From contig NZ_MBQD01000021.1 of the NCBI RefSeq assembly GCF_001693815.1, positions 62,001-126,000 on the forward strand: DNA of 64,000 bases, in the 5' to 3' direction. Of this stretch, positions 1 to 39,961 are shown one piece after another. The DNA is from Tessaracoccus lapidicaptus. GTDB lineage: Bacteria > Actinomycetota > Actinomycetes > Propionibacteriales > Propionibacteriaceae. Within the stretch, counting starts at the first letter, position 1, and every line of letters starts with the position of its first letter. The translations under genes and the position numbers were made by a program. The notes beneath the pieces were generated by a model. The model was not told the origin of the DNA. It searched no databases and was given only the letters and a program-made list of their open reading frames with translations.

Positions 1-1178
1 CACAGGGGGCCGTCGTAGAAGTTACCCGGGCAGATCGCGTTGACCTTGACGCCGTGCTCGACGAGTTCCAGCGCGAAGCTCTGCACGAGCCCGATGCCGC
101 CGAACTTCGACCCGGCGTAGGCGCCGTTCTTGTTCGAGCCCACCAGGCCGGACTTCGAGTTGATCTGGATGATGTCGGTCATCCAGCCCGGCGCGGCGGA
201 GTGCTGAGCAGCCAGCAGGCGGCCCAGGTGCTTCGTCACGAGGAAGAAGGCCGTGTAGTTGATGTCCGTGGTCAACGCGAACGCGGACAGCTCCTGCTCC
301 AGCACTCCCCCGGCCCGGACGATGCCGGCGTTGGAGATGACGAGGTCGAGGCCGCCGGTGGTCGCCGCGATCTGCTCGGCCATGGCTGAGACAGAGGCCT
401 CGTCGGACACGTTGACCGTGATCGCGGCGGCGCGGTCGCCCAGCTCCGCGGCCAGGGCCGCGGCGCCGTCGCCGTTGAGGTCGGCGATGTAGACGAACGC
501 GCCGGAGTCGATCAGCCCGTGGACGATCTCCGCGCCGAAGCCCTGGGCACCGCCGGTGACGACGGCGACCTTGCCCGCGACGACGGCGGACCGCGACGCC
601 GCGCTGCGGGCCTCGGCGGTGCGCGCACCGGGGAGCGGGGTGAGGTCGCCGAGGGTGCGTGCGGAGAAGGCGAAGCGCTCCCCCGAGACCTCCACGACGA
701 CGCTGCCCGGGAGGGGCAAGTCGGCGTCGGCCAGGGCCTGGGGCAGGTCCGCCATCGATGAGACCTTCTTAGGCTTCGAGGCCGACTCCGTCGGCACCTC
801 AGCCAGCGGGTCCAGCGTCGAGGCCGACTCCGTCGGCACCTCAGCCAGCGGGTCCAGCGTCGAGGCCGACTCCGTCGGCACCTCAGCCAGCGGGTCCAGC
901 GTCGAGGCCGACTCCGTCGGCACCTCAGCCAGCGGGTCCAGCGTCGAGGCCGACTCCGTCGGCACCTCAGCCAGCGGGTCCAGCGTCGAGGCCGACTCCG
1001 TCGGCACCTCAGCCAGCGGGTCCAGCGTCGAGGCCGACTCCGTCGGCACCTCAGCCAGCGGGTCCAGCGTCGAGGCCGACTCCGTCGGCACCTCAGCCAG
1101 CGGGGTCACCAGGACCGGGACCCCGTATCGGGCCAGGTAGGCGCCGCGCACGACCGGCGCGATCTCGACCAGGCTCAT
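1..1178 (-). CDS. SDR-family NAD(P)-dependent dehydrogenase with repeat-expanded N-terminal region (3' end outside window)
   Basis: Last visible gene of the minus-strand dehydrogenase operon. Its ATG (1176-1178) overlaps the TGA of the PHP gene, so translation is coupled. About 24 ordinary residues come first, then a 14-residue unit (LAEVPTESASTLDP) repeated almost eight times at residues ~25-134, then a short linker. A Rossmann domain follows with nucleotide motif TGGAQGFG near residue 207, NAG (SNAGIV) and active-site YAGSK near 353. The C-terminus runs off the window edge. A polyol or secondary-alcohol substrate is likely from the family and context, but it is not identifiable. The repeat region is unusual for a cytoplasmic SDR. 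Confidence 0.85.
   Translation of the reverse strand, partial: MSLVEIAPVVRGAYLARYGVPVLVTPLAEVPTESASTLDPLAEVPTESASTLDPLAEVPTESASTLDPLAEVPTESASTLDPLAEVPTESASTLDPLAEVPTESASTLDPLAEVPTESASTLDPLAEVPTESASKPKKVSSMADLPQALADADLPLPGSVVVEVSGERFAFSARTLGDLTPLPGARTAEARSAASRSAVVAGKVAVVTGGAQGFGAEIVHGLIDSGAFVYIADLNGDGAAALAAELGDRAAAITVNVSDEASVSAMAEQIAATTGGLDLVISNAGIVRAGGVLEQELSAFALTTDINYTAFFLVTKHLGRLLAAQHSAAPGWMTDIIQINSKSGLVGSNKNGAYAGSKFGGIGLVQSFALELVEHGVKVNAICPGNFYDGPL
778..1104. repeat. Tandem repeat, 42-bp unit, 7.8 copies, inside the SDR gene
   Basis: Units begin at 778, 820, 862, 904, 946, 988, 1030 and 1072. The copies read as identical and the last is truncated at about 33 bases. The unit is a multiple of three, so copy-number change would alter protein length and not frame. 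It encodes LAEVPTESASTLDP on the minus strand. There are no spacers, which excludes CRISPR. Perfect identity suggests recent expansion by slippage or unequal crossover. Confidence 0.97.
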
Positions 1179-2521
1179 GCCGTCACCGTCCTCAGGTCGT
1201 CGGCCGCCGCAGCGACCGTCAGTCCACCCTGCACCAGTCCACGGCCGAGTCCGGCGTAGCGCGCGACCCGCTCGGCGAGCGGCAGCGACGCCAGCGGGGA
1301 GTGGGCCGAGAACAGCCCGAGGCCGCCGTCGACCTCGGCCAGCCGCTCGTGGGCCACCATCGCCCAGGTGGCGTCGTTGAGGTGGGCCAGCTCCGGCCGC
1401 TGGAGCTCCGGGCAGTTGAACACCTGGCGAGGCGTGTTGATGTCCACGCCCGACACCTCCAACAGCCCGTGCTCCGCCGCCAGCGCCGCGACCCGTGCCA
1501 TCTGCTCGGGGGTGTTGCGCGGCGGCATGTACGTGATCGCCGGGATCCCGATGCGACGCAGTTCCTCCACCAGGAGATCGAGGAAGTCGTCTTCGAACTT
1601 CTCGGCCTTCTTGTCCCCCGTGGGCGACGCGGTGACGTCGCCGAGGTACGCATAGGCCGGGATGGCGTCGACGGACGTCGCGAAGGCGGCAACCTCGGCC
1701 ATCGTCGGGCACTCGGTCCGGTCCGGGACGATGTAGATCTGCCCGAGGAACTCGGCCTTCATGACGCCAAGCAGGTCGAACACCAGGTGCGGGTTGTCGG
1801 GGTCCGCGAGCTGGTCGCGGACCTTGCCGCCGAGGGAGAGCCCGAGCTCGGCCAGGCCGTCGACGAGCGACTGGCCCACCCCGAAGCGCTCGATGAGCTT
1901 CGACGCCATGGCCGCCAGCAGGTGCCGTTCGGTCACGGTGCCGCCCCGGAGGAACTGCGACCGCTCGACGATGTCCTCCTCGAGGTCGATCAGCGGCGCG
2001 CCGAGACGGCCGAGGATCTCGTTGGCCCGCTCCACCATGGCCCCGGTCCGCCTGAGGCGGGCCTCGCGCACCGGCACCAGGTACTCGGACACCGCATCGC
2101 GCGAGCGCGCCGGGATGCCCTGCACTGTCATGTAGGCGATGCCAGCCGTGTCGGGGTTGTTGAGCTTGCGGTCATGCAGCGGCGCGCGGCCCGCGGCCAC
2201 CTCCTCCTCGCTGTACATGTAGACGCGGCACTCGAAGCCGGTGACCGCGCCCATCCCGAGGAGCCCGGCGGCCTCCGCCATCTCGGCGGCCGCGCCGGCG
2301 GAGTCGTGGTCCACCGACCCGACGACCTGCAGCCCCGCCTCGCGGGCCCGCAGCGCCGCCATCGCCGGAGCGTACGGGCTGAACGAGTAGATGGTGTGCA
2401 CGTGGTTGTTCGACTCGGTCACGAACTCCGGGAACGCGGGCGTGCCCTCCAGGTACCCCTTCAGCGCGTCGAGCCGCTCGCCGGGCGTGGCGAGGGGGTC
2501 GTTGATCGCCTCGCGCGACAC
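1175..2521 (-). CDS. PHP-domain metal-dependent hydrolase/phosphoesterase-like protein
   Basis: 448 residues from a GTG start one base downstream of the E1 stop. PHP-superfamily metal-binding signatures are visible: NNHVHTIYSFSPYAP near residue 38 (HxH), SVDHDS near 69 and GFECRVY near 95. PHP proteins use a divalent-metal centre to hydrolyse phosphate esters, and some members act on amides or lactones. The substrate cannot be read from sequence. It lies between the E1 gene and the SDR gene with overlapping codons, so it presumably acts on an intermediate of the same catabolic route. No polymerase or histidinol-phosphatase context is present. Confidence 0.8.
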   Translation of the reverse strand: MSREAINDPLATPGERLDALKGYLEGTPAFPEFVTESNNHVHTIYSFSPYAPAMAALRAREAGLQVVGSVDHDSAGAAAEMAEAAGLLGMGAVTGFECRVYMYSEEEVAAGRAPLHDRKLNNPDTAGIAYMTVQGIPARSRDAVSEYLVPVREARLRRTGAMVERANEILGRLGAPLIDLEEDIVERSQFLRGGTVTERHLLAAMASKLIERFGVGQSLVDGLAELGLSLGGKVRDQLADPDNPHLVFDLLGVMKAEFLGQIYIVPDRTECPTMAEVAAFATSVDAIPAYAYLGDVTASPTGDKKAEKFEDDFLDLLVEELRRIGIPAITYMPPRNTPEQMARVAALAAEHGLLEVSGVDINTPRQVFNCPELQRPELAHLNDATWAMVAHERLAEVDGGLGLFSAHSPLASLPLAERVARYAGLGRGLVQGGLTVAAAADDLRTVTA

Positions 2522-2522
2522 G

Positions 2523-4982
<2,460 letters not shown>

Positions 4983-5012
4983 GGAATGTGACTCCTGTTG
5001 TTCGTGTCTCGC

Positions 5013-6422
5013 TCAGGCCTTCGCAGCCCAAGCCGCCTCTCGGATGAGTTCGCTGACGGTGGGATGGGGGAAGACGACCTGGCGCAGGTCGGTGATGGTG
5101 AGTTCGGTCTCCAGGACGACGGAGGCGCCCCAGACCATCTCGGAGGCGTAACTGCCGACGACGTGCAGGCCGAGGACCTGCAGGGTGTCGCCGTCGTAGA
5201 CGAGCTTCGCGGCCCCGGGGGCCTTGACGCCGTTCTCGGCGACGAAGCGGCCCGACATCGCGCCGGGCACCGTGACGGTCTGGACGTTGCCGCCCTTCGC
5301 CCTGGCCTGCGCCTCGGTGAGTCCGATGCCCGCCGCCTCCGGGATGGAGTAGACGGCCCACGGGATGGTGCCCCAGCGCATGACCTCGCCGCGGCGGTGC
5401 GCCTCGGGGTCCAGGATGTTGGCGGCGGCCACCTCACCCATGCGGTACGCGGCGTGGGCCAGCAGGGAGCGGCCGGTGACGTCCCCGATGGCCCAGACGT
5501 TCGGGAGGTTGGTGCGCATGCGGTCGTCGACCGCGACACCCTTGCCCGAGACCTCGAGGCCGCTGCTCTCGGCCCCCCAGCCCTGCACGGCGGGGCGGCG
5601 GCCGACCGCCATGAGCACGACGTCGGCCTCAACCGCCTCGGCGGAGCCGTCTGCGGTGGTGTACTTCACGCTGCCGCCGTCGATGGCGGTGACGGTGCAC
5701 GACAGCTTGAAGGCCACGTTGCCGAGCGCCTTGCGCAGCATGGGTGCGAGTTCGGCGTCCATGAACGGGACGATCTCGGGCAGCATCTCCACGACGGTGA
5801 CCTCAGACCCGAGCGTGGCGAACAGGCTCGCGAACTCCAGCCCGATCACGCCGCCGCCGATCACGGCCAGGCGCGGCGGGATCGCGTCGACGGCGAGCAT
5901 GCCGGTGGAGTCCACCACGTGCGGATTGTCCTTCGCCCCGGGGATGGGGGGCATGACGGGGACGGAGCCGGTGGCGAGGATGACGTGGTCGCCGGTGTAA
6001 CTCTCCGCTCGTTGAGCCGGACCGGAGCCGGAGGCGCCGTCCGCGTCGAAACGGACGGTGACCCGCCCGGGCCCGTCGAACGTGCCGTACCCCTTCACGA
6101 CGGTGACGCCGGCCTTCTTCTCCGCGAAGCCCACGCCCTTGACGAGGGTCGTGACGGTCTGGGCCTTCCACTTCTGCAGTTCGGTCCAGTCCACCGAGAT
6201 GTCGGAGGTGTGGATGCCGAGGTTGCTGCCGTGCTTGGCGTGTTCGTAGGTCTTGGCCGCGTTCAGCAGGGCCTTCGTGGGGATGCAGCCCACGTTGAGG
6301 CAGGTGCCGCCCAGGGCGTCGGCCTCGACGAGGAGGACCTTCCTGCCCGCGTGGCCGAGTCGCTCCGCGGCGATGTAGCCGCCGGGGCCGCCGCCGAGGA
6401 CGATGACGTCGTAGTCACTCAT
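5013..6422 (-). CDS. lpdA: Dihydrolipoamide dehydrogenase (E3)
   Basis: 469 residues from the ATG that gives MSDYDVIVLGGGPGG; a longer upstream frame overlaps E2 and is not used. FAD-binding GGGPGG is at 10-15, the redox-active disulfide is GGTCLNVGC (Cys41, Cys46), the NAD-binding GGGVIGLEF lies mid-protein, and the C-terminal HPTVSELIREA carries the His-Glu pair of the disulfide oxidoreductase interface. It reoxidises the dihydrolipoyl arm of the E2 encoded 17 bp upstream, reducing NAD. Family assignment is secure; dedication to this complex is inferred from position. Confidence 0.95.
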   Translation of the reverse strand: MSDYDVIVLGGGPGGYIAAERLGHAGRKVLLVEADALGGTCLNVGCIPTKALLNAAKTYEHAKHGSNLGIHTSDISVDWTELQKWKAQTVTTLVKGVGFAEKKAGVTVVKGYGTFDGPGRVTVRFDADGASGSGPAQRAESYTGDHVILATGSVPVMPPIPGAKDNPHVVDSTGMLAVDAIPPRLAVIGGGVIGLEFASLFATLGSEVTVVEMLPEIVPFMDAELAPMLRKALGNVAFKLSCTVTAIDGGSVKYTTADGSAEAVEADVVLMAVGRRPAVQGWGAESSGLEVSGKGVAVDDRMRTNLPNVWAIGDVTGRSLLAHAAYRMGEVAAANILDPEAHRRGEVMRWGTIPWAVYSIPEAAGIGLTEAQARAKGGNVQTVTVPGAMSGRFVAENGVKAPGAAKLVYDGDTLQVLGLHVVGSYASEMVWGASVVLETELTITDLRQVVFPHPTVSELIREAAWAAKA

Positions 6423-6439
6423 GGATGTGTCGGTTCCTC

Positions 6440-7813
6440 TCAGCCGAGAGCGGTGATGTCGATGGCCTCGATGAAGCGCACGAGGTCTTGCAGGAAGCGG
6501 GCGGCGTCCGCACCGTCGATGACGCGGTGGTCCGCGGTGAGCGACAGCCCGATGCGCTGCTCGGCACCGACGGAGCCGTCGGCGTTGACCTTGACGCGCG
6601 GGAAGATGGCGTCGACGCCGAGGATGGCGGTCTGGGGCACGTTGAGCAGCGGGGTGAACGACTCGATGCCGAAGCCGCCCAGGTTCGAGACCGTGAACGT
6701 CGCGCCCGACAGCAGGTCCGGGTTGATCGAGCCCTGGATGGCCTCGTTCGCCAGCTGCTTGCTGACCGCGGAGAACTCCCGCAGGCTCATCAGCGACGCG
6801 TTGCGCACCGTCGGCACCAGCAGACCGCGGGGGGTGTCGCACGCGAAGCCCAGGTGGACCCGCTCGAAGGTGGTGAGCACGCCGTCGGCCAAGTGCGCGT
6901 TGTGCGAGGGGTTCTGCGCGGCGGCGCGGACCGCGGCGTAGCCGACGAGGTCGCCGATGGTGACGCCGGTCATGCCGAGCGCAGCGTCCGAGTTCTTGAG
7001 CTTCTTGCGCAGGTCCAGCAGCCCCTGCGCGTTCGCGGTGGTGGTGTAGGTGAGCTGCGCGGACGTCGCCAGCGAGTTCATCATCCGCTCGGAGATGACC
7101 TTGCGGACGCCCTTCACCTGCGTGGCCTCCGAGGGGCCGGGGAAGTCGGCGTCGACGGCGGTGGCCGGGCGCGCGGCGGGCATCGTCGGGGCGACGGCCT
7201 CCGGAGCCGGGCCGGCGGTGAGGTCGGTCGTGGTGACGCGACCGCCGAGGCCGGTGCCCTGCGCGGCGGCGCCGTGCGCACCGGCCCGTGCGGCAGCGGG
7301 CGTGGCTGAGGTCAGCGCCTCCTTGACGTCGCGCTCGATGACGCGGCCGCCGGGGCCGGAGCCCTCCTCGACGGCGCCGAGGTCGAGCGAGTTCGCCGCG
7401 GCGAGGTTGCGGGCGCGGGGGCTGGCGGCGCCGGTGGCGGCGGCACGCTCGGCGGGTTGCGCGGCGACCTCGGGGGTGGCCGACGCCTCCGTGGGCTGAG
7501 GCGCGGGGGCCGCGTCGCCCTCACCGTCCTTGCCGGCCCAGCCGACGGCGTCGAGGGCGGGCTTCGGGTCCTCCCCGGCCGCGCCGACGACGAGGAGCGG
7601 CTCCTTGACGGGGACGTCGTCGCCCTCGTCCCACAGCAGCGCCAACACGGTGCCGGCAGCGGTGGAGGGCACCTCCATGGAGGCTTTGTCGGTCTCGACC
7701 TCGCAGACGATGGCGTTCTCGGCGATCTCGTCGCCCACCTTCACCTGCCACGACACGATCAGGCACGACTCGACACTGTTGCCGAGCTGCGGCATGACTA
7801 CGACGGTTGCCAT
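6440..7813 (-). CDS. Lipoyl-dependent dihydrolipoamide acyltransferase (E2)
   Basis: 457 residues from ATG at 7813, with AGAAGGA just upstream. The N-terminal lipoyl domain (1-~78) has the modification site VETDKAS with Lys43. An Ala/Pro/Glu-rich linker follows, then a peripheral-subunit-binding domain near ASPRARNLA. A second short GGRV...DL segment looks like a partial duplicate. The catalytic domain runs from about 225 to the end, with ADHRVIDG supplying the acyltransferase His and Asp. It forms the core of the complex with the downstream E3 and E1. The encoded lipoate ligase at 30208-31257 could modify Lys43. Confidence 0.93.
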   Translation of the reverse strand: MATVVVMPQLGNSVESCLIVSWQVKVGDEIAENAIVCEVETDKASMEVPSTAAGTVLALLWDEGDDVPVKEPLLVVGAAGEDPKPALDAVGWAGKDGEGDAAPAPQPTEASATPEVAAQPAERAAATGAASPRARNLAAANSLDLGAVEEGSGPGGRVIERDVKEALTSATPAAARAGAHGAAAQGTGLGGRVTTTDLTAGPAPEAVAPTMPAARPATAVDADFPGPSEATQVKGVRKVISERMMNSLATSAQLTYTTTANAQGLLDLRKKLKNSDAALGMTGVTIGDLVGYAAVRAAAQNPSHNAHLADGVLTTFERVHLGFACDTPRGLLVPTVRNASLMSLREFSAVSKQLANEAIQGSINPDLLSGATFTVSNLGGFGIESFTPLLNVPQTAILGVDAIFPRVKVNADGSVGAEQRIGLSLTADHRVIDGADAARFLQDLVRFIEAIDITALG

Positions 7814-7844
7814 TGGCTGTCCTTCTGGGTTGGGGTCTTCGTTG

Positions 7845-8597
7845 TCAGACGACGAGCACCCTGGTGTGCTCGCGGAGTGCATCGGCGGCATCCTCGGGGA
7901 GACCGCGGTCGGTGATGATCCCGGCGATGTCCGGGAGGCGGAGGAACGTGACGAAGCCGGCCTGGCCGAACTTCGAGGAGTCGGCGAGCAGCCAGGTCTC
8001 CTCGGCCCGGCGGGCCATGCCGGAGGCCACCTGTCCGCCCTCGACGAAGCGGGTCGTGAGGCCGCGCTCGGGGGAGAACCCGTCGGTGCCCAGGAACGCG
8101 AGCCGGGTGTTGAAGTCTGTGATGGCGCGCTCGGCGAGCGGCCCGACGAACGACTCGGACTCCGCCCGGAACACGCCCCCGGTGAGGATGACTCCGAGGG
8201 CGGCGTTGCTGCGGGCGGCGCTGAACACGAGGGCCGAGTTGGTGACGATCTGGACGCCTGAGCGGCCCGCCAGGTGCTTGACGACCATCGCCGTGGTGGT
8301 GCCCGCCTCGATCATGATGGTGTCGTCGTCACGCACCAGCGCCGCGGCCGCGGCCGCGATGCGCTGCTTGGCGTCGACGTTGACCTTCTCGCGCTGGAGG
8401 ATCGACTTCAGCGTCGTCGGACGGGCGCCGCCGCGGGTGCGCACGAGGAGCCCTCGCTGTTCCAGGGTGCGGAGGTCGCCGCGGATGGTGACCTCCGAGA
8501 CGCCGAGGCGAGCCGCCAGCGACGAGACGGTCAGGGTCCCGTCGTCCGTGAGACGCGACATGATCTCCTGCTCGCGTTCCGCGCGCTCGACCGTCAT
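7845..8597 (-). CDS. DeoR-family transcriptional regulator
   Basis: 250 residues. The N-terminal winged helix (LTVSSLAARLGVSEVTIRGDL, residues ~22-42) is followed by a DeoR C-terminal sensor domain with the ISOCOT-like stretch EAGTTTAMVVKHL and TNSALV. DeoR repressors usually sense a phosphorylated sugar intermediate. It is the first gene of the minus-strand operon, 31 bp ahead of E2, which implies carbohydrate-derived induction of the dehydrogenase complex and autoregulation. The effector is unknown. Confidence 0.92.
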   Translation of the reverse strand: MTVERAEREQEIMSRLTDDGTLTVSSLAARLGVSEVTIRGDLRTLEQRGLLVRTRGGARPTTLKSILQREKVNVDAKQRIAAAAAALVRDDDTIMIEAGTTTAMVVKHLAGRSGVQIVTNSALVFSAARSNAALGVILTGGVFRAESESFVGPLAERAITDFNTRLAFLGTDGFSPERGLTTRFVEGGQVASGMARRAEETWLLADSSKFGQAGFVTFLRLPDIAGIITDRGLPEDAADALREHTRVLVV

Positions 8598-8629
8598 TGG
8601 CGTCCCATCACTGTCGGTTCCGAAGTGGT

Positions 8630-8669
8630 TTCGATGTCACCACGCTAAACCCTTCGGATCAGCTTCGAT
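8630..8669. promoter_or_regulatory. Candidate DeoR operator (TTCG direct repeats)
   Basis: TTCGA/TTCGG elements occur at 8630, 8653 and 8664 in the gap between the divergent deoR-like and serpin genes. The spacings are 23 and 11 bp, about two and one helical turns. An opposing CCGAA lies at 8620-8624. DeoR-family sites are often such repeats. No binding evidence; the assignment is inference. Confidence 0.35.
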
Positions 8670-10817: not shown

Positions 10818-10897
10818 CAGGGTAAGGGAGGCACGATGACGTACGGCTCGACCTCCGTCCGTCCCTGCCCAGGGGGAGCTTGCGGAGAGGGGCTGCT

Positions 10898-11968: not shown

Positions 11969-12026
11969 GGATGCGGCGCGACCCTATCGAACCCGCTGCG
12001 ACCGGCGCCGAAGCTGGAGCTGCTGA
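11952..12026 (+). CDS. Possible 24-residue leader peptide
   Basis: ATG at 11952 is three bases after a full AAGGAGG (11942-11948), the best Shine-Dalgarno sequence in this stretch. The frame (starts MFTATKDAARPY, Arg-rich) ends at TGA 12024-12026, two bases before the ABC-ATPase ATG. It overlaps the end of the LacI gene. It may couple translation of the ATPase to the upstream mRNA, or be a remnant. No family resemblance. Confidence 0.3.
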   Translation: MFTATKDAARPYRTRCDRRRSWSC

Positions 12027-12027
12027 G

Positions 12028-14890: not shown

Positions 14891-14898
14891 CCTCACGG

Positions 14899-14947
14899 CC
14901 AGGGGTCGGTGTCCCCGCGCCGTCAGCGCCGGGACACCGACCCCTGG
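14899..14947 (+). terminator. Perfect 17-bp inverted repeat after the binding-protein gene
   Basis: Arms 14899-14915 and 14931-14947 are exact complements around a 15-base loop. There is no T-tract on the plus side, so this is more likely an attenuator or mRNA-stabilising hairpin between the transporter and kinase genes than a full terminator. Confidence 0.7.
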
Positions 14948-14991
14948 ATCGGCCATCAGCCACCCCCACCAACATCCAAGGAGTAACCCGA

Positions 14992-16338: not shown

Positions 16339-16430
16339 ACGCACGGATACGTCGGGCCCAACGAATCTGTCACCCCCCATCACCCGCAACCACTACGGGC
16401 TGCACAGGCCCCATCACAGGAGAGTTACCA

Positions 16431-17324: not shown

Positions 17325-17333
17325 TCAAACAAC

Positions 17334-17380: not shown

Positions 17381-17451
17381 CTTGCTCGGACCCTGACAGA
17401 CATGGGCAGTTCAGGGTTCGGGGGCGGCTAGCCACCCCCGAACAACTGCGT

Positions 17452-19027: not shown

Positions 19028-19061
19028 CCACCGCCCACCCACCGACTCAGAAAGACCAGAC

Positions 19062-25323: not shown

Positions 25324-25995
25324 ATGGACATCCTGTTCGACACCGCCAACCTCGACGACATCGAGCGACTCACGCCCATCTACCCCGTCACGGGCGTCAC
25401 CACGAACCCGTCGATCCTCAAGAAGGAGGGCCCCATCGACTTCTACGCCCACCTCAAGCGCATCCGGTCGATCATCGGCCCCAACCGGACGCTGCACGTG
25501 CAGGTGCTGGCGAAGGACGCGCAGGGCATGATCGACGAGGCGCACCGCCTGCTCGACATGATCGACGCCAACGTCTACCCCAAGGTCCCGACGACGGAGG
25601 CGGGCATCCAGGCGATGCGCGTGCTCAAGAGCGAGGGCGTGAAGGTCACCGCCACCGCCATCTACTCCAAGACCCAGGGCTTCCTCGCCATCGCGACCGG
25701 CGTCGACTATCTCGCCCCCTACTACAACCGCATGCAGAGCCTCGACATCGACACCCGGGGGACGCTCAGCGCCCTGGCCAGCTTCATCGACCGCTTCGAG
25801 GCGCCCAGCAAGATCATGGCCGCGAGCTTCAAGAACATCGCGCAGGTGTCGCACGCGCTGGAATCGGGCGCGCACGCGGTGACCCTGTCTCCCAAGCTGC
25901 TGCGCCAGGCCCTGTCGGCGCCCATGATCGAGGACGCCGTCGACGCGTTCATCTCCGATTGGAAGGACGTCCATGGGACGACGACGCTCCCCTGA
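25324..25995 (+). CDS. fsa: Transaldolase/fructose-6-phosphate aldolase (FSA/TalC type)
   Basis: 223 residues, the length of the small TalC/FSA subfamily. MDILFDTANLDDIERL, VTGVTTNPSIL and NVYPKVPTTEAG (Schiff-base Lys in YPKVP) are the family signature. FSA-type enzymes make or cleave fructose 6-phosphate from dihydroxyacetone and glyceraldehyde 3-phosphate; others are true transaldolases. The gene stands alone, divergent from the membrane-protein gene, so its pathway is not shown by context. Confidence 0.9.
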   Translation: MDILFDTANLDDIERLTPIYPVTGVTTNPSILKKEGPIDFYAHLKRIRSIIGPNRTLHVQVLAKDAQGMIDEAHRLLDMIDANVYPKVPTTEAGIQAMRVLKSEGVKVTATAIYSKTQGFLAIATGVDYLAPYYNRMQSLDIDTRGTLSALASFIDRFEAPSKIMAASFKNIAQVSHALESGAHAVTLSPKLLRQALSAPMIEDAVDAFISDWKDVHGTTTLP

Positions 25996-30207: not shown

Positions 30208-31257
30208 ATGCGTGGAGAGTACAAGGTCCCTGGCGGGAAGCTGGTCGCCGTCGACATCGAGACGGACGGCGGGCGAATAGCCCACGCCGCCGTCTCGGGT
30301 GATTTCTTCCTCGAACCGGACGAGGCCCTCGACGACATCAACGGGGCCCTGCTGGGGATGCCCGAGTCGTCGTCAGTGGCGGATCTCGCCGCGGCCATCA
30401 CGGCGCGGCTCGACCCGTCGGCCACGCTCATCGGCTTCACCCCCGAGGCGGTGGGCATCGCCGTGCGGCGCGCGCTCGGGCACGCCTCGGACTGGTCGGA
30501 TCACACGTTCGACGTGATCGGCCCGGTCTCGATGGACCCGCGCATGCACGTGGCCCTCGACGAGGTGATCGCCGCCCGGCTGGCGCGCGGCGAGATCAAC
30601 CCGAGCCTGCGCATCTGGGAGTGGGACCAGCCGCTGGTGGTGATCGGCTCGTTCCAGTCCTACCGCAACGAGATCGACGACGACGGCCGCGCCCGCCACG
30701 GCATCAACGTCGTGCGGCGGATCACCGGCGGTGGCGCCATGTTCATGGAGCCCGGCAACTGCGTCACGTATTCGCTCGTGGTGCCGGCGTCGCTCGTCGA
30801 GGGGCTGAGCTTCGAGCGGTCCTACGAGTTCCTGGACCAGTGGGTGATGGGCGCGTTGGCCGAACTGGGCGTGAACGCCCGGTACGTGCCGCTCAACGAC
30901 ATAGCATCCGACAAGGGCAAGATCGCCGGCGCCGCCCAGCGCCGCGTGACCGGCGGCGTCGTCGTGCACCACGTGACGATGGCCTACGACATCGACGCCG
31001 ACAAGATGCTGGAGGTGCTGCGGATCGGCCGCGAGAAGCTCTCCGACAAGGGCACCAAGTCCGCGAACAAGCGCGTGGATCCGCTGCGCTCGCAGACGCG
31101 GCTGCCCCGCGACGAGATCATCACCGCGTTCCTGGCGCACTTCGAGGGCCGCTACGCGACGCAGCGCCGCGGGTACACCGAGGACGAGCTCGCCGCCGCG
31201 CAGCACCTGGTCGAGACCAAGTTCAGCTCCGAGGAGTGGACCAAGCGGATTCCTTGA
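30208..31257 (+). CDS. lplA: Lipoate-protein ligase with N-terminal accessory domain
   Basis: 349 residues. Residues ~1-90 (MRGEYKVPGGKLVAVDIE, GIAVRRALG) resemble the C-terminal accessory domain of LplA. Residues ~100-349 are the catalytic domain with RRITGGGAMFMEPGN and the lipoyl-AMP Lys segment SDKGKIAGAAQRR. The domain order is therefore reversed relative to E. coli LplA. The enzyme activates lipoate and attaches it to E2-type Lys residues, making the E2 at 6440-7813 a plausible client. It starts nine bases after the thioredoxin stop. Confidence 0.9.
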   Translation: MRGEYKVPGGKLVAVDIETDGGRIAHAAVSGDFFLEPDEALDDINGALLGMPESSSVADLAAAITARLDPSATLIGFTPEAVGIAVRRALGHASDWSDHTFDVIGPVSMDPRMHVALDEVIAARLARGEINPSLRIWEWDQPLVVIGSFQSYRNEIDDDGRARHGINVVRRITGGGAMFMEPGNCVTYSLVVPASLVEGLSFERSYEFLDQWVMGALAELGVNARYVPLNDIASDKGKIAGAAQRRVTGGVVVHHVTMAYDIDADKMLEVLRIGREKLSDKGTKSANKRVDPLRSQTRLPRDEIITAFLAHFEGRYATQRRGYTEDELAAAQHLVETKFSSEEWTKRIP

Positions 31258-31365: not shown

Positions 31366-31809
31366 TCACTCGCCGGGCTGGCGCACCCCCACGGTGAGGA
31401 TCAGGTTGGCGTACAGGCGCTGGTCCGCGCTCACGATCACCACCGAGACGTCGTCGGACTTCGCGACGTCGTAGAAGTCCCAGCGCGGGATCTCGACGAA
31501 CTCCACACCCGGAAGGGCGGCACGGTACTCGTCGTGCGCCGGGATCGAAGCAGGCGCCTCCGCCCCGCTGGCGTCCGCCGCCGGGATCATGATGCCCGCC
31601 TGCTCGATCGGGATCGTCCGCTTCAGGACCTCGAGGATGTCGGACACCGTCAGCAGGCCGGGCGCGAGGTTGAGGTAGATGCGCTCAGCCGACGCCGGCG
31701 CCCCGGTCGACGCCGGGTAGTTGCCGTCGGTGATGAGCACCTTCGAGCTGTGGCCCGCGCGGCCCAGAGCGCCGAGCAACTGCGGGTGGGTCATGGGTCC
31801 GTAGAGCAT
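31366..31809 (-). CDS. fucU: RbsD/FucU-family sugar mutarotase
   Basis: 147 residues. MTHPQLLGALGRAGHSSKVLITDGNYPAS carries the His and Asp typical of FucU/RbsD, and LYANLILTVGV is the conserved C-terminal strand. It interconverts sugar anomers before isomerisation. Last gene of the minus-strand operon, 21 bp after the LacI stop. With an L-fucose isomerase upstream, fucose mutarotase is the best guess; ribose pyranase is less likely. Confidence 0.85.
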   Translation of the reverse strand: MLYGPMTHPQLLGALGRAGHSSKVLITDGNYPASTGAPASAERIYLNLAPGLLTVSDILEVLKRTIPIEQAGIMIPAADASGAEAPASIPAHDEYRAALPGVEFVEIPRWDFYDVAKSDDVSVVIVSADQRLYANLILTVGVRQPGE

Positions 31810-31830: not shown

Positions 31831-32814
31831 TCAGCTGCTGGCCCGGACGACCAGCGTGGGTGAGATGAGAGTGGACTCGGCAGCGTCTCCGGCCAGCAGT
31901 TGACTCAGCGCCGCCACCGCGACCTCGCCCACCGCGCGGAAGTCCTGTCGGATCGTCGTCAAGGGCGGCAGGAAGCTCTCCGAGCCCAGGGCGTCGTCGA
32001 ACCCGACCACGCGCACGTCGCCGGGGACCGCCCGCCCGGCCAGCTGCAGCGTCGTCATGGCTCCCAGCGCCAGGTGGTCGTTGGCGGCGAAGATGCCGTC
32101 CACGTCGCGGGGCAGACGGGCGACGAGGGGGGCGGCCGCCGTCGAGTCCCAGGACCGGGCCGGCAGGATCAGCGGCGGGATGCCCGCGGCGGCGACGGCC
32201 TCGCGGTAACCGCTCAGCCGCTCCCGCGCATCGGTCCATTCCTCTGGACCTTCCAGGTGCGCGATCCGGGACGCCCCCCGCTCGAGCAGATGTTCGACGG
32301 CGAGGCGGGCACCTAGCCGGTGGTCGACGGCGACGCCCACGACGGCATCCGGGAGGTCGTGGGTCTGTCCCACGTAGACGGTCGGGAGCCGCGCCGCGAC
32401 CGTGTGCACCCACGACCTCGGCTCGCCGCGACCGCCGAGCACGACGACGCCGTCGGCCCCGACCGGCACGAGCTGGTGCAAGGGCACCGTGCCGAGGTCC
32501 GCCCGGATCACCGAGGTAGAGATGTGCAGGTCGAGGGCGGCCAGGGCCTGGCAGACGGCGACGAACGTCGTGGCGTGTCCGTGCAGCAGCGGCACCGCGT
32601 CGATGATGTGCACCGAGCCGGTGCGGTTGGCCGACAGCGAGCGCGCCGCCATGTTGGGTTGGTAGTTCAGCTGCTCGATGGCCGCCAGCACCTTGAGCCG
32701 CGTCGCCTCAGCGACGACGTCCACCCCGCGCACGACACGCGAGGCGGTCTGCATCGACACCCCGGCCGCCTCCGCGATGTCGCGGAGATTGGCCCGTGGG
32801 CGGCGTCGGCTCAT
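31831..32814 (-). CDS. LacI-family regulator of the fucose-type operon
   Basis: 327 residues from ATG 32814, overlapping the kinase stop. HTH LRDIAEAAGVSMQTASRVVRG, hinge MAARSLSANRTG, and effector domain with IFAANDHLALGAM and VVGFDDALGSE. It is encoded within the operon it probably represses. A matching operator-like palindrome sits before the operon's first gene at 39902-39919. Confidence 0.92.
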   Translation of the reverse strand: MSRRRPRANLRDIAEAAGVSMQTASRVVRGVDVVAEATRLKVLAAIEQLNYQPNMAARSLSANRTGSVHIIDAVPLLHGHATTFVAVCQALAALDLHISTSVIRADLGTVPLHQLVPVGADGVVVLGGRGEPRSWVHTVAARLPTVYVGQTHDLPDAVVGVAVDHRLGARLAVEHLLERGASRIAHLEGPEEWTDARERLSGYREAVAAAGIPPLILPARSWDSTAAAPLVARLPRDVDGIFAANDHLALGAMTTLQLAGRAVPGDVRVVGFDDALGSESFLPPLTTIRQDFRAVGEVAVAALSQLLAGDAAESTLISPTLVVRASS

Positions 32815-34241
32815 CGCTCCACCTCGTAGCGCACCGTCCTGGCCGAGGCCGCGATGACGCCGTTGCGCCCGGCCGGATCCAGGTGGCCCATGATCTCGAG
32901 CTGGGCGATGAGGGAGCCCAGCGACGACGCCTCGACCGGCCCGGCGATGACAGGCACCCCGACCGCGTCCGCCGTGAGGCGGCACAACAGGGCGTTGCGC
33001 GACCCGCCGCCCACCATGGTGAGCTCCGATGGCCGAGCGCCGGTGAGCGCCGCCAGCGCGTCGATGCCGCGGGCGTACCGGGCGGCCAGGGACTCGAGGA
33101 TCACCCGCACCACCGCTCCCTCGTCGAGCTCGACCGGCCCGCCCTGCGCGGCCACCGCGGACGAGACCCGCCCGACCATGCCGCCGGGCTGCGCGAAGCC
33201 CGGCTCGTCCGGGTCGATGAGGATTCCCGTCGACGGCGCCGCCTCGGCCGCCCTGACCAGGTCGACGATGTCGTGGACGCCCCCGGTGGCCCGCCACTCA
33301 CGCTGGCACTCCTGCAGGATCCACAGCCCGGTGATGTTGAACAGGGGGCGTAGTCCTCGGTCCGCCCGCGCCTCGTTGGTGAGCCCGAGGGCGTGGGCCT
33401 CGGCGCTGAGGAGGGGTTCGTCGCGGAGGACGCCGAGCACCGACCAGGATCCGCAGGAGAGGAAGAAGGTCTCCTCCCCCGGTCTCCGCTGCAGCGCGTG
33501 CACCGCGCAGGCCGTGTCGTGGGCTCCCGCGCGGACGACGGTGAGTTGTTCCAGCCCCGGGATCCGGCACGGCCCGACGACGGTGTGCTCGGCCGTGACG
33601 TCGCCGAACCAGGATCGCGGGATGCCCAGCGCCTCGAACACGTCGTCGTTGAATTCATGGGCCCCTGGGCGGCAGAGCGCCGACGTGGAGGCGTGGGACC
33701 TCGACCAGCCGGCCTCACCGGTGAGGAGGTAGGTGATGTAGTCGGGCAGCAGCAGCACCCGCGACACCTGCGCCGCCAGCTCCGGTTCCTCGGTGACGAG
33801 CGCGAAGAGCTGGTTGGCGGTGTTGATCGTCGCCGGGGCGATGCCGGTGGCCGCCCACACGGCGTCGTCGTCGAGCCGCGCGCGGAACGCGTCGAGCGTG
33901 CGGGCCGTTCGTTCGTCCCGGTAGGCGACGGCGGGTCCGACCCGGCGGCCGTCGGCCCCCAGCGTGACGGCATCGACGCCCCAGGTGTCGACGGAGACGC
34001 TGACGGCGTCGGGGAACCGCGCGACGGCTGCCTTCAGCCCGGCGGTCAGCTCGCGCTCGATCAGGTCGAGGTCCCAGGTGAGATGGCCGTGCGCGGACCC
34101 GGGTCCCGGCTCCTGGCGGGCCGCCTCGTGGGCGAACCGGTGGACTTCCACCTCCTCGATGACACCGTCGCTCAGCGTGCCGGCGATGATGCGCCCCGAC
34201 GACGATCCGAGATCGACGGCCAACGCGGTCACGGGGCTCAC
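32811..34241 (-). CDS. FGGY carbohydrate kinase, rhamnulokinase-like (L-fuculokinase by context)
   Basis: 476 residues from GTG. N-terminal LAVDLGSSSGRIIAG and VDTWGVDAV, LLPDYITYLLTGE, CGSWSVLGV and ESLAARYARGIDAL follow the RhaB pattern closely. Because it is paired with L-fucose isomerase and a fucose mutarotase, the likely reaction is phosphorylation of L-fuculose at C1. The partner fuculose-1-phosphate aldolase is not in this window. Confidence 0.85.
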   Translation of the reverse strand: MSPVTALAVDLGSSSGRIIAGTLSDGVIEEVEVHRFAHEAARQEPGPGSAHGHLTWDLDLIERELTAGLKAAVARFPDAVSVSVDTWGVDAVTLGADGRRVGPAVAYRDERTARTLDAFRARLDDDAVWAATGIAPATINTANQLFALVTEEPELAAQVSRVLLLPDYITYLLTGEAGWSRSHASTSALCRPGAHEFNDDVFEALGIPRSWFGDVTAEHTVVGPCRIPGLEQLTVVRAGAHDTACAVHALQRRPGEETFFLSCGSWSVLGVLRDEPLLSAEAHALGLTNEARADRGLRPLFNITGLWILQECQREWRATGGVHDIVDLVRAAEAAPSTGILIDPDEPGFAQPGGMVGRVSSAVAAQGGPVELDEGAVVRVILESLAARYARGIDALAALTGARPSELTMVGGGSRNALLCRLTADAVGVPVIAGPVEASSLGSLIAQLEIMGHLDPAGRNGVIAASARTVRYEVER

Positions 34242-34344: not shown

Positions 34345-36114
34345 TCAGGCGTACAACGGGCCGAACTGGGCGCAGGCGCGGTAGTCGGCGCCCTCGAGGT
34401 CGGCGGTGCCGAATCCGAGCCAGTTCTTCGGCCGGAAGATCCGGTCGCGGGACACGTTGTGCATGTTGACGGGGATGCGCAGCATGGCCGCCAGCGTGAT
34501 GAGCTGGTGCCCGATGTGCCCGTAGGTGATGGCGCCGTGGTTGGCGCCCCAGGCGTTCATCACCTCGTACACCGAAGTGAACGCGCCCTCGCCCGTGAGG
34601 GTGGGCACGAACCAGGTCGTGGGCCACCCGGGATCGGTGCGCAGCTCGATGGTCTTGGCCACCTCGTCGGGCAGTTCGACGGTGTAGCCCTCGGCCAGCT
34701 GCATGACGGGACCCAGGCCGTCGATCCAGTTGATGCGCGTCATGGTGACGGGCACCTCGCCGGACGAGCGGAAGTGGGTGGAGAAGCCGCCGCCCCGGAA
34801 GTAGCCGGTGTTGGCGGGGTGGAAGGTCGTCGCCTCCAGCATCGCGGCGGTGTCGTCGTCAGTCAGCTCCCACCAGGGCTTGATGCAGGCGTTGCCGTCG
34901 GCGTCCTTCGCGGCGAGCGTGCCGTCGAGCGTCGTGGCGCCCGAGTTGCGCAGGTCGATGAAACCGCCGGCGGCCAGACCCTCCGGGCGGTATCCGGTCA
35001 CGCGCTCCACCGCGTCGGCGCTCCAGTAGGTGCGCACGTCGGAGAAGATCTGCGCCCGGTTGGTCAGCAGGTAGTTCACCAGCATCGACGCGCCGTTGAG
35101 GTTGTCGTTCTCGGTGGCCATGATGAGCGGGGCGCGGGTGCCGTTCCAGTCGAACTGGGTGTTGAGCATCGTCTCCATGAGGTCACCGTTGGGCAGGAAG
35201 TCCGTCCACTGCCGCTGGCCCTGGAAGCCGGACACCAGCGCGCCGTGACCCAGCGCCTCCTCGGCGAAGCCCTTGTCCGCGAGCTTCGGGTTGCCGATCA
35301 TGAGGTCGCGGCCGATGAGGACGAGCTTGGTGGAGTACGCCCACCAGTCCTCGTGCTTGTCGCCGTCGGCCTGCCAGTGCTCGGGGTTGAAGTCCTCGCC
35401 CTGGGCTAGGTTCTCCTTCACCCAGGCGTAGGCGCGCTCGTACTCCTCGTCGTCGTAGATGCCGAGCTGGACGCGGCGGTCGAGCTCGACCATGTCGACG
35501 TACTCGTTGCGCATGCCCAGCCAGTAGTTCCAGAACTCCTCCTTGACCACGCAGCCGGCGATGCCCATGGACACGCCGCCGATGGAGAGGTAACTCTTGC
35601 CGCGCAGCTGCGCGACGGCGAGACCGGCGGTCGCGTAGTCGAGGAGCCGCTGGCGGACGTCGTCGGGGATGGCGTCGTCGTCCGCGTCGCGGACCTCCTC
35701 GCCGTAGATGCCGAACGCGGGGATTCCCAGCTGGGCGTGCCCGGCCAGGGCGGCAGCCAGGTAGACGGCGCCGGGGCGCTCGGAGCCGTTGAAGCCCCAG
35801 ATGGCGTGAGGCATGGTGCGATCCATGTCGATGGTCTCCGACCCGTACGCCCAACACGGGGTGACCGAGAGCGTCAGTCCGACGTTCTCCCGCTTGAACT
35901 TCTCCGCGGCGGCCTGCGCCTCCGGGACACGGCCGATCGTCGAGTCGGCGATGACCACCTGGACGGGCGAGCCGTCCGGGTAGCGCAGCTCGGCCTCGTA
36001 GAGCTCCTTGACTCGCAGAGCCATGTTCATGGTCTGGTCTTCGAGGCTCTCGCGAACGCCGTTGCGCCGCCCATCAATGATGGGTCGGATGCCGATCTTG
36101 GGGTAGTTGGACAC
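34345..36114 (-). CDS. fucI: L-fucose isomerase
   Basis: 589 residues, matching the ~590-residue FucI family. Recognisable stretches are [18 protein letters not shown] at the N-terminus, [16 protein letters not shown] and [16 protein letters not shown] in the metal-binding active site, and [16 protein letters not shown] near the C-terminus. Mn-dependent conversion of L-fucose to L-fuculose (also D-arabinose to D-ribulose). GTG start with AGAAGG upstream. Flanked by its own ABC importer and kinase. Confidence 0.95.
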
Positions 36115-36204: not shown

Positions 36205-37263
36205 TCACTCGTAGAGGTTCGCGGCGATCTCGGGATCGTCGATGTTGGTGGCGTCGTACCAGGCGAAGCCGGAGTCGATGACCTTCGGCAGCTCCTGGCC
36301 GTCGATGGCCTTGATGGCCGCCACGACGGTCTCGTAGCCCATCTTCACCGGCGACTGGGTGATGGCACCCGCCATGTCACCGTTGCGGATGGCGTCGAGC
36401 TGAGCCTTGCCCGAGTCGAAACCGACCACCACGACGTCGGCGCCGGACTCCACGGCGCCCTGCAGGGTGCCGATGGCCGAGGCCTCGTTGGAGCCGTAGA
36501 TGCCCGCGATGTCGGGGTTGGCCTGGATGATGGCCTTGGCGGTGTTGGCGGCGAGGCCGACCTCGAACGCGTACTGCGGCTCAAGCAGCTTCACGTCGGG
36601 GGCGTTCTCCTGCATCCACTCCTGGAAGCCCTCACAGCGCTGCTTGCCGGTGGCAGAGGTCTGGTCGTGGCAGACCAGGCCGACGGTGCCCTCGTTGCCG
36701 ATGAGCTCCGCCATGTTCTTGGCGGCCTCGGCGGCGGCGGCGCGGTTGTCGGTCGAGACCGTGGTCAGCGGGATGTCCGAGTCGACGCCGGAGTCGAAGG
36801 CGATGATCGGGATGTTCGCCGCCTGGATCTCCTCCAGGACCGGGCCGGCTGCGCCGGAGTCGAGTGCGGCGAAGCCGATGGCGGCCGGCTGCGACTGCAG
36901 GGCGGTGCGCAGCTGGTCGAGCTGCTGCGTGACGGCCTGCTCGTTCTCGGGGCCGACGAACTCGACCTTGTAGTTGAACTCCTCGCCGGCCTGCTCGGCG
37001 CCCTGCTTCACTGCCTGCCAGAAGCGGTGCTGGAAGCCCTTGCTCACGAGGTAGATGGTCTGGGTGCCGTCACCCATGGGGATATCGCCCTCGGCGGGGG
37101 CGGAGGACTCGGCGGGCGCCGACGATTCGGCCGGGGCCGAGGAGCTGGCGGAGGTCTCGGCCGGGGCCGGAGCCGACGACGTCGTGGTGGCCGAGGTGGA
37201 GCAGGCGGTGAGGCCCAGTGCGAGCACTGACGACATTGCCAGTGCGGAGCGCAACATGCGCAT
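36205..37263 (-). CDS. ABC transporter sugar-binding lipoprotein (fucose-type operon)
   Basis: 352 residues from ATG 37263, with GAAAGG upstream. Signal MRMLRSALAMSSVLALG and lipobox LTAC, then a repeated SAPAE tether, then the periplasmic-binding fold (IYLVSKGFQHRFWQAVKQGA, GFDSGKAQLDAIRNGDM). It lies third in the operon after the ATPase and permease genes and supplies substrate to them, probably L-fucose or D-arabinose from the enzymes encoded next. Confidence 0.93.
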   Translation of the reverse strand: MRMLRSALAMSSVLALGLTACSTSATTTSSAPAPAETSASSSAPAESSAPAESSAPAEGDIPMGDGTQTIYLVSKGFQHRFWQAVKQGAEQAGEEFNYKVEFVGPENEQAVTQQLDQLRTALQSQPAAIGFAALDSGAAGPVLEEIQAANIPIIAFDSGVDSDIPLTTVSTDNRAAAAEAAKNMAELIGNEGTVGLVCHDQTSATGKQRCEGFQEWMQENAPDVKLLEPQYAFEVGLAANTAKAIIQANPDIAGIYGSNEASAIGTLQGAVESGADVVVVGFDSGKAQLDAIRNGDMAGAITQSPVKMGYETVVAAIKAIDGQELPKVIDSGFAWYDATNIDDPEIAANLYE

Positions 37264-37325
37264 GGCGGTTTTCCTTTCGGTTGTGGGAGGACCGCCCTCC
37301 CGGATGGGGTGTGGTGGTGGGTGGA

Positions 37326-38330
37326 CTAGACGGCCGACGCGCGCTGACGGCGCAGGATGTCGGCGTAGACGGCGAGCAGGACGACGATGCCGGTGACGAC
37401 GAGCTGCCACTGCTGGGCGACGCCCATCATCTGCAGGCCGACGGTCAGCGTCATCATGAGCAGGGCGCCCATCATGGTGCCGACGATGTTGGCCCGGCCG
37501 CCCGACAGCGAGGTGCCGCCGATGACGACCGCCGCGATGACCTGCAGCTCCATGCCGAGGCCCTCGGCGGGCTGCACGAAGCCGAACCGGCCGGAGTAGA
37601 GGATGGCGCCGAAGGCGGTGAAGATGCCGGCGGTGACGTAGACGAGCGCCTTCCAGAACTTCACGTTGATGCCCGACAGGCGCGTCGCCTCCTCGTTGGA
37701 GCCGATGGCCAGCGCGTAGCGCCCGAGCAGCGTCTTGCCGAGGATGACAGCCGCGATGATGCCGAGGATGACGAAGATCAGCGCCGCGTTGGACAGGAAC
37801 GGGATGATGCGGCCGTTCGAGATCGCCGAGTAGTCCGGGTTGGCGATCTTGATGCTGGAGGCGTTGGAGATGATGAGCGACAGTCCTCGCGTCACCATCA
37901 TCATCGCCAGCGTCGCGATGAACGGCGGGATGTGCAGGTAGGCGATGAGCAGGCCGTTGACCAGGCCCATCACCGCGCCCACGATCAACACCAGCAGCAG
38001 GCCCAGCCCGAGCGGCAGGTTCATGAACTCCGCCGACATGAACACGCCCGCCATGACGGCCGAGAACGTCATACCGGTGCCGACAGAGAGGTCGATGCCG
38101 CCCGTGCCGATGACGAACGTCGCCCCGAGGGCCATGGTGCCGATCGCCGCGGCCTGCAGCAGGATGTTCGGGATCACGACACCCGCGCTGAAGTTCGGCG
38201 CGAAGATCATAAAGAACACGAACACCACGATCAGCGCGGCGAACACGAACAGCTGCTGGAGAGATGACCTGATGAACTGCTGCACCCGCGACTGCTCGGC
38301 GGGGGCGGCGTTGGTGGCGACGGTGCTCAC
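37326..38330 (-). CDS. ABC transporter permease, RbsC type
   Basis: 334 residues, GTG overlapping the ATPase stop. Hydrophobic helices throughout; signature GTGGIDLSVGTGMTFSAVMA near 80 and VIAAVVIGGTSLSGG near 265. Cytoplasmic-membrane component of the fucose-operon importer. Confidence 0.93.
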   Translation of the reverse strand: MSTVATNAAPAEQSRVQQFIRSSLQQLFVFAALIVVFVFFMIFAPNFSAGVVIPNILLQAAAIGTMALGATFVIGTGGIDLSVGTGMTFSAVMAGVFMSAEFMNLPLGLGLLLVLIVGAVMGLVNGLLIAYLHIPPFIATLAMMMVTRGLSLIISNASSIKIANPDYSAISNGRIIPFLSNAALIFVILGIIAAVILGKTLLGRYALAIGSNEEATRLSGINVKFWKALVYVTAGIFTAFGAILYSGRFGFVQPAEGLGMELQVIAAVVIGGTSLSGGRANIVGTMMGALLMMTLTVGLQMMGVAQQWQLVVTGIVVLLAVYADILRRQRASAV

Positions 38331-39844: not shown

Positions 39845-39901
39845 GAGTACTCCTTCGTACGTGCTGAACGAGCCCTCCGGTGGCCCTCGTTCAGCAGCGA
39901 T

Positions 39902-39919
39902 GTTAACGCTATCGCAAAC
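39902..39919. promoter_or_regulatory. Candidate LacI operator before the fucose-type operon
   Basis: GTTAACGCTATCGCAAAC is an imperfect 18-bp palindrome (12 of 18 positions symmetric, outer GTT/AAC and inner CG-TA-CG) 58 bp ahead of the ATPase start. It is a plausible site for the LacI protein encoded within the operon. Confidence 0.45.
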
Positions 39920-39961
39920 CATCGCCCCTGCCTAGCGCCGTTATGCAACTGTGATGATGCG

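Follow-up and report, generated by a model that had tools for sequence, protein, structure and literature searches.

A lipoyl-complex operon of Tessaracoccus lapidicaptus with a genomic link to L-fucose and L-rhamnose catabolism

We analyzed a 64,000-nucleotide stretch (the window) of the genome of Tessaracoccus lapidicaptus (G000, contig C21; G, C and L numbers are our handles for genomes, contigs and loci), which carries an operon encoding a DeoR-family regulator, the E2, E3 and fused E1 alpha/beta components of a pyruvate-dehydrogenase-like complex, a PHP-fold protein and an SDR dehydrogenase. A firm genomic tie of this operon to fucose and rhamnose genes is very probable. Tentatively, we read the operon as the lower part of a 6-deoxyhexose catabolic route, in which a carbonyl shift by the SDR and a zinc-dependent MDR dehydrogenase would precede cleavage by the lipoyl complex. 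The substrate is taken to be a deoxyhexose because the operon is accompanied across genomes by genes for FucI or RhaA, for an FGGY kinase and for a mutarotase as well as by the MDR gene, and genome comparison supports L-fucose for Tessaracoccus/Arachnia and Schaalia and L-rhamnose as well as L-fucose for the spirochaetes.

The operon and the fucose isomerase cluster

The six genes are co-directional on the minus strand (Table 1). They are separated by 31 (DeoR/E2), 17 (E2/E3), 30 (E3/E1) and one base (E1/PHP), and the PHP and SDR genes overlap by four bases, a spacing which, judged from the sequence, is the layout of one transcript. The preliminary description of this stretch had reported co-directional genes with overlapping or nearly overlapping ends, as confirmed by these distances, and had read the gene set as it stands, but overlooked three elements, namely the MDR dehydrogenase, the lipoate ligase and the window's FucI cluster. 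Scans with Pfam and NCBIfam families back the names of the DeoR, E2, E3, E1 and SDR proteins.

The FucI cluster is located about 25 kb from the operon, in the window itself, and comprises genes for L-fucose isomerase, a sugar kinase, a LacI-type regulator, a mutarotase and a sugar ABC importer. Its FucI, kinase, FucU and binding protein are 58-82% identical to the proteins encoded at the FucI locus of G251, with 50% identity for LacI. The kinase reached 343 bits against the rhamnulokinase model, under the cut-off of 528, and the binding protein of the importer is 76% identical to one beside FucI in L051. Convergent with this cluster is the gene for the lipoate-protein ligase LplAB.

Gene neighborhoods in related genomes

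A scan of species genomes with the PHP alignment confirmed at least 541 relatives, and the best 80 loci, from Tessaracoccus, Arachnia, Schaalia, Treponema and kin, were analyzed, many of them with flanks ending at contig ends. The SDR gene directly followed the PHP gene in 73 of these loci (the other seven had none such), and E1, E3, E2 and DeoR recurred within the flanks (54, 53, 50 and 45 loci, respectively), an arrangement that is therefore not due to chance. The flanks also contained MDR in 49 loci (27 of the short and 22 of the long form), FucI in 11 and FucU in 13.

Closer examination of individual loci revealed the isomerase and the operon side by side. Schaalia carries FucI, FGGY kinase, LacI, FucU, DeoR, E2, E3, E1, PHP, SDR and MDR as a single block, and G251 a sugar-binding protein, FucI, kinase, LacI, FucU, MDR, DeoR, PHP and SDR followed by a second DeoR with E2, E3 and E1. 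Locus L056 of a distant actinobacterium (G082) consists of kinase, DeoR, SDR, PHP, MDR, E2, E3, E1, class II aldolase, FucI (1080 bits, cut-off 775) and LacI. In the Treponema locus L080 the set is accompanied by L-rhamnose isomerase, L-rhamnose mutarotase, lipoate ligase and lipoyl synthase, all above curated cut-offs, as well as a RhaE-like aldolase and a rhamnose-binding (RhaS-like) protein a fraction of a bit under its cut-off, and the spirochaete locus L093 encodes an L-fucose mutarotase above the cut-off. Clustering of 40 spirochaete loci, with shorter loci left out and families named from the members scanned, placed the RhaA family in nine, RhaM in five, lipoate ligase in six, the FGGY kinase family in 17 and the aldolase in 13. 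RhaA was found in seven of the nine treponeme genomes reached via PHP loci, with one further genome outside this count. The lipoate ligase and lipoyl synthase genes of L080 (L080:11666-13556) lie inside the rhamnose locus of a genome with a single E2 gene, and this locus suggests that lipoylation is kept there for this complex.

Co-occurrence across genomes

Searches of 39 genomes of the genus (E value at most 1e-10 for FucI, 1e-100 for E1 and 1e-10 for MDR) found each of the three genes in 32. For each pair 31 genomes had both genes, one and one had a single gene and six had neither; Fisher's test gave p 1.5e-5, with no correction for kinship. The exceptions were G340 without FucI, G322 (84% complete) without E1 and G326 (60% complete) without MDR. 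PHP was present in seven of the eight genomes of the genus searched; the 109 sampled from the rest of the family, which with these eight make a total of 117, yielded none. A full-length PHP relative was found in two of 197 other genomes of a phylum sample (G082 and G168), after short, general PHP-motif matches in 25 further genomes had been discarded, and plasmid records gave no PHP match.

Among 198 Spirochaetota (E value at most 1e-30), PHP was detected in seven, RhaA in 13, FucI in 27 and either isomerase in 35. All seven PHP-bearing genomes have RhaA or FucI (p 3e-6; leaving out the centre genome, which had been picked for bearing PHP, gives p 1.8e-5). A single PF00198 E2 gene was found in six of 14 PHP-bearing spirochaete genomes, which by its coordinates is the cluster's own in G345, G346, G347, G444 and G516 (the sixth genome is G348); the other eight gave two to six matches, some of them weak fragments.

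The E1-E2-E3 complex

The E2 protein had its highest score with models of pyruvate-type acetyltransferases (254 bits), slightly ahead of succinyltransferase models (225 bits), all under curated cut-offs, and contains the motifs ETDKA and DHRVID; the disulphide and the HPTVSE motif are present in E3. Alignment of E1 showed the alpha2beta2-type signature with the thiamine-diphosphate-binding GDx...NN motif, the alpha His loop, the beta Glu and the beta His all intact, residues which we take to be the catalytic ones. Relative to the aligned E1s outside its clade, it carries insertions near residue 75 and near residue 255.

Two E1 trees of 21 and 19 rows, with and without two other fused E1s, were built with one pdh row, one bkd row, the window genome's own paralogue and two acetoin rows named by gene context as references. 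The E1s of the loci and three rhizobial plasmid E1s formed one clade (support 100/100) on a long stem, separate in both trees from the annotated pdh and bkd E1s and the context-named acetoin E1s; long branches were flagged in the alignment and deep joins are untrustworthy.

The rhizobial E1s (L040, L041 and L042; pRL8 and others) are likewise fused, share 51-53% identity with the window E1 and lie close to sugar kinases and ABC importers, together with a sugar-phosphate isomerase/epimerase at one locus and a mannitol-dehydrogenase family protein at another. Unlike the window E1 they have a split partner, since they adjoin genes for a free-standing lipoyl protein and for an alpha/beta-hydrolase, each of which matches one half of the acetoin acetyltransferase (AcoC-type) model in the two loci scanned (L040 and L041). 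When the six window proteins were compared by blastp, these loci gave no match to PHP, SDR, E2 or DeoR and a single weak one to E3, in L041. The rhizobial context weakly favors acyloin over 2-oxoacid cleavage for the E1 clade, and the three loci possibly represent a further sugar-derived acyloin system.

The SDR and MDR dehydrogenases

The SDR domain scored best against the sorbitol-6-phosphate dehydrogenase (SrlD) model (210 bits, under the cut-off of 307). In the tree, the SDR and its relatives were sister to three SrlDs (support 98/99) and separated from both SorD and an aldolase-SDR fusion, with long branches flagged and a very long branch for the single aldolase-SDR row. The MDR, a zinc dehydrogenase whose gene belongs to the set, is encoded at C22:249856-251454 in T. 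lapidicaptus. Its counterparts in the spirochaete locus L080 and in G082 are 46-54% identical to SorE/YggP (L-sorbose-1-phosphate reductase).

The PHP-fold protein

The PHP protein gave no Pfam hit and a weak NCBIfam hit, and its fold was settled by the predicted structure, for which the nearest solved structures are phosphoesterases. The full metal-ligand set of PHP phosphoesterases consists of HxH, SDG, DH, E, H, H and DxH. In 48 sequences compared, HxH, DH, E97, H200 and D360 are conserved throughout, and the SDG position is SFS in 47 and SYS in one. Q134 occurs in all 48, where L055/L056 have H, and N362 in 47; in our own reading of the alignment these two residues would correspond to metal-ligand positions. 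The metal ligands thus look altered and the canonical phosphoesterase set incomplete. Most plausibly, although this is a guess, the protein acts on a tetrose phosphate as an isomerase/epimerase or as a phosphatase.

Proposed pathway

In the L-sorbose route a ketose-1-phosphate is reduced at C2 and the resulting polyol phosphate is then oxidised at the other end. By family membership, the isomerase and the kinase would provide a ketulose-1-phosphate, of which the MDR would reduce C2 and the SrlD-like SDR would oxidise C5, yielding a 1-deoxyketose-6-phosphate with a net shift of the carbonyl from C2 to C5. L-Fuculose-1-phosphate would be converted via L-fucitol-1-phosphate to 1-deoxy-D-tagatose-6-phosphate and L-rhamnulose-1-phosphate to 1-deoxy-D-sorbose-6-phosphate, both of them alpha-hydroxy methyl ketones like acetoin. 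Cleavage between C2 and C3 of the 1-deoxyketose (C4 and C5 of the sugar) by E1-E2-E3 would then give acetyl-CoA, NADH and a tetrose-4-phosphate. Fucose and rhamnose would converge on D-threose-4-phosphate because the sole centre distinguishing the two ketulose phosphates becomes the aldehyde, given the facial selectivity that we assume for the sorbose enzymes and the Fischer projections as we take them. The PHP protein would handle the tetrose phosphate. The mechanism of this route appears moderately likely. That it constitutes a third 6-deoxyhexose route common to Actinomycetota and Spirochaetota, combining carbonyl transposition, a new E1 clade that yields acetyl-CoA and D-threose-4-phosphate, and a PHP protein with a reduced metal site turned tetrose-phosphate isomerase/epimerase, is a doubtful proposition.

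The preliminary description had suggested that a ketone made by the SDR is cleaved by the complex to an acyl-CoA in a pathway without a name. The cleavage fits our preferred model, although the description had not given the substrate. The findings that it had named as refuting it did not appear, in that E1 fell outside the pyruvate, branched-chain and acetoin E1s sampled, and the PHP and SDR genes were found in the loci of relatives. The PHP protein may, as it had also proposed, open a lactone or act in dephosphorylation. The free polyol or inositol that it had considered gave way, as the loci point to L-fucose and L-rhamnose instead and no inositol genes were seen among the recurrent neighbor families.

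Parts of the proposed route resemble known systems. As in the L-sorbose pathway with its reductase SorE and glucitol-6-phosphate dehydrogenase (SorD/SrlD), a zinc MDR and an SDR would relocate the carbonyl group from C2 to C5 in a ketose-1-phosphate, with an SDR sister to SrlD and a spirochaete MDR about 50% identical to SorE; in contrast, the substrate here would be a 6-deoxyketose-1-phosphate whose methyl-ketone product cannot feed into glycolysis directly, the SDR lies outside the SorD branch and the MDR of T. lapidicaptus is distant from SorE. The pairing of SorE with SorD is described in PMC2831201, and L178 holds such an operon. The isomerase, mutarotase, FGGY kinase and sugar ABC importer are shared with the classical FucI-FucK-FucA and RhaA-RhaB-RhaD/RhaEW pathways, whereas E1-E2-E3, PHP, SDR and MDR stand in place of the class II aldolase in three near-complete genomes. 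The acetoin dehydrogenase complex (AcoABCL) likewise combines a thiamine-diphosphate-dependent E1, a lipoyl E2 and an E3, and the reaction that we propose here would similarly split an alpha-hydroxy methyl ketone to form acetyl-CoA; the window E1, however, belongs to a clade of its own, has fused subunits and carries two insertions, and its E2 is of the classical acyltransferase type.

Several observations weigh against this model. E1 lies outside the acetoin clade and has the sequence GHSPSD in its alpha loop, compared with the GHFEGD-like loop of acetoin E1. The MDR of T. lapidicaptus shares 24-29% identity with the SorE group over about 240-255 residues and is unlinked to the operon, on a separate contig, and a 16-mer scan and inspection found no operator common to the candidate DeoR palindrome and the front of the FucI cluster or of the MDR gene in this genome. 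G340 has E1 without FucI and G322 FucI without E1, and 28 of the 35 isomerase-bearing Spirochaetota lack PHP, so that other routes are commoner there. A class II aldolase is encoded at 13 of the 40 spirochaete loci and at the G082 locus, and we know of no precedent for the proposed PHP step.

Mucins, plants and algae commonly contain the sugars L-fucose and L-rhamnose. If the proposed route is correct, C5 and C6 of fucose would pass straight to acetyl-CoA, bypassing lactaldehyde and propanediol and changing the predicted fermentation products, and pyruvate-dehydrogenase-like complexes would gain a new substrate class. The gene set could also explain fucose users without the textbook aldolase, a concrete and testable answer. 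Within a published survey, the aldolase gap in fucose users is stated as open and Actinomyces is listed among the genomes with a predicted fucose ABC importer (PMC5583593). The enzyme families are all known; no description of their combination or of its deoxyhexose link was found among the matches listed from the open-licence literature, the scope of our search.

Alternative routes

One alternative, which we consider unlikely, is the aldolase route with a dedicated tail, in which dihydroxyacetone phosphate (DHAP) and L-lactaldehyde are formed from L-fuculose- or L-rhamnulose-1-phosphate, the SDR oxidises lactaldehyde like RhaW and the complex is a dedicated pyruvate dehydrogenase for the resulting pyruvate. 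The RhaE-like aldolases of the spirochaete and G082 loci, where an aldol step may indeed take place, are in keeping with it, as is the SDR of G082, whose N-terminal stretch resembles the C-terminal part of an aldolase (35% over 57 residues, E 1e-5). According to PMC3870299, RhaEW forms DHAP and L-lactate from rhamnulose-1-phosphate. In G251, the longer PF00596 protein is an 821-residue rhamnulokinase-aldolase fusion beside an L-rhamnose isomerase (RhaI, above the cut-off; L193:725-4357), and rhamnose seems to use an aldolase in this genome. However, PF00596 class II aldolases were absent from five of the 39 genomes of the genus, and three of 99-100% completeness (G267, G302 and G332) contain FucI, E1, MDR and PHP but no PF00596 aldolase, i.e. 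no FucA. The ten PF00596 aldolases scanned (of 20 loci fetched, from other genomes of the genus with T. lapidicaptus included) were AraD-type (308-380 bits, cut-off 251) and reached 93-142 bits against the fuculose-phosphate aldolase model (cut-off 264). T. lapidicaptus itself, in which an aldolase route could still operate, has two PF00596 hits, one AraD-type and the other, on C11, weak (65 bits). The aldolase route furthermore has no place for MDR and PHP, such close tracking of fucose and rhamnose genes would be surprising for a pyruvate dehydrogenase, E1 lies outside the sampled pyruvate dehydrogenase branch, and the SDR groups with SrlD rather than with the sampled aldolase-SDR (a single, very long branch).

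Equally improbable, in our estimate, is that the same gene set acts on the same substrate through an unphosphorylated or diketo intermediate, either by early dephosphorylation by PHP or by oxidation of C5 by the SDR without reduction of C2, with E1 cleaving a free 1-deoxyketose or a 2,5-diketone. The position of SDR directly after PHP in most loci may reflect sequential action, the nearest solved relatives of PHP being phosphoesterases would agree with dephosphorylation, and the MDR gene is sometimes unlinked. On the other hand, the kinase step would be wasted if the phosphate were removed, and the ligand set of a PHP phosphoesterase looks incomplete.

Decarboxylation by E1-E2-E3 of a 2-oxoacid derived from a deoxysugar acid, in a fucolactone-type route, is less probable still. 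E1 relatives of known substrate decarboxylate 2-oxoacids or cleave acetoin, but the FucI and kinase encoded in the clusters produce ketulose phosphates, and no lactonase, dehydratase or sugar-acid gene was noticed by eye among the most recurrent neighbor families, the extent of this comparison (no genome-wide search was made).

Three further candidates were rejected: a generic pyruvate dehydrogenase, weakened by the single E2 gene in six of the 14 PHP-bearing spirochaete genomes; conversion of rhamnulose- into fuculose-phosphate through an AraD-like epimerisation by the aldolase of the spirochaetes, as G082 has FucI and a similar aldolase, which is thus not rhamnose-specific; and the TalC-like gene of the window as the sugar-cleaving enzyme, which occurs in no spirochaete locus scanned and whose stereochemistry presumably does not fit.

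Other features of the window

Table 1. Features of the operon, the FucI cluster and associated elements in the window.
Feature	Position	Strand	Basis or remark
DeoR-family regulator	7845..8597	-	PF00455 162 bits, PF08220 54 bits, both above cut-off
E2, one lipoyl, E3-binding and acyltransferase domain	6440..7813	-	PF00364, PF02817, PF00198 above cut-off
E3 dihydrolipoyl dehydrogenase	5013..6422	-	TIGR01350 457 bits, cut-off 409
Fused E1 alpha/beta, thiamine-diphosphate dependent, 819 residues	2523..4982	-	PF00676, PF02779, PF02780 above cut-off
PHP-fold protein, 448 residues, GTG start	1175..2521	-	
SDR dehydrogenase, SrlD-like	1..1178 (stop at G000:C21:61775, 225 bases left of window)	-	PF00106 139 bits
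Perfect in-frame 42-bp tandem repeat, 7.8 copies, in SDR N-terminal extension	776..1104	-	L008:12776-13104
Palindrome 5' of DeoR, candidate DeoR operator	8615..8640	.	CATCGAAACCACTTCGGAAC on minus strand
TalC-like (fructose-6-phosphate aldolase/TalC) gene	25324..25995	+	NF009299 291 bits, cut-off 214
Lipoate-protein ligase LplAB	30208..31257	+	NF053751 583 bits, cut-off 550
RbsD/FucU-family mutarotase	31366..31809	-	PF05025 90 bits, cut-off 25; 58% identical to L051 gene by FucI
LacI-type regulator (start inferred)	31831..32814	-	Family by eye; 50% identical over 327 residues to LacI-like gene by FucI in L051
FGGY sugar kinase, presumed L-fuculokinase	32811..34241	-	PF00370, PF02782 above cut-off
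L-fucose isomerase FucI	34345..36114	-	NF008220 983 bits, cut-off 775; TIGR01089 926 bits, cut-off 850
Sugar ABC importer: binding protein, permease, ATPase	36205..39922	-	Names by eye

Palindromes similar by eye to the candidate operator were found upstream of DeoR in L049, L050, L051, L053 and L054. The tandem repeat of the SDR has a unit of 14 residues, of which L058 and L059 carry one to three degenerate copies, with none visible in the other relatives compared, and it looks like a recent expansion. The TalC-like gene, found close to the operon in some actinobacterial relatives, would fit tetrose-phosphate metabolism, yet is not universal: tblastn (1e-6) detected it in L049, L057, L064, L051, L183, L066 (partial), L065 (30% identity) and the window, with no match at any spirochaete locus scanned.

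The left neighbor of the operon is a convergent esterase-like gene, and two large genes are located to the left of the operon (L008:2282-8229), of which 5794-8229 encodes a GH3-family glycosidase according to Pfam. A second sugar cluster (10880-21838 of the window) contains LacI, an ABC importer and an SDR (all by eye), an FGGY kinase, a LacD-like tagatose-bisphosphate aldolase, a mannitol-dehydrogenase family protein and a D-mannose-isomerase-like protein of the GlcNAc 2-epimerase family. To the right of the operon and divergent from DeoR, positions 8769-10001 encode a serpin (PF00079, 128 bits); a serpin with 78% identity neighbors the operon in L059, and members of the serpin family were also found in L057 and L058.

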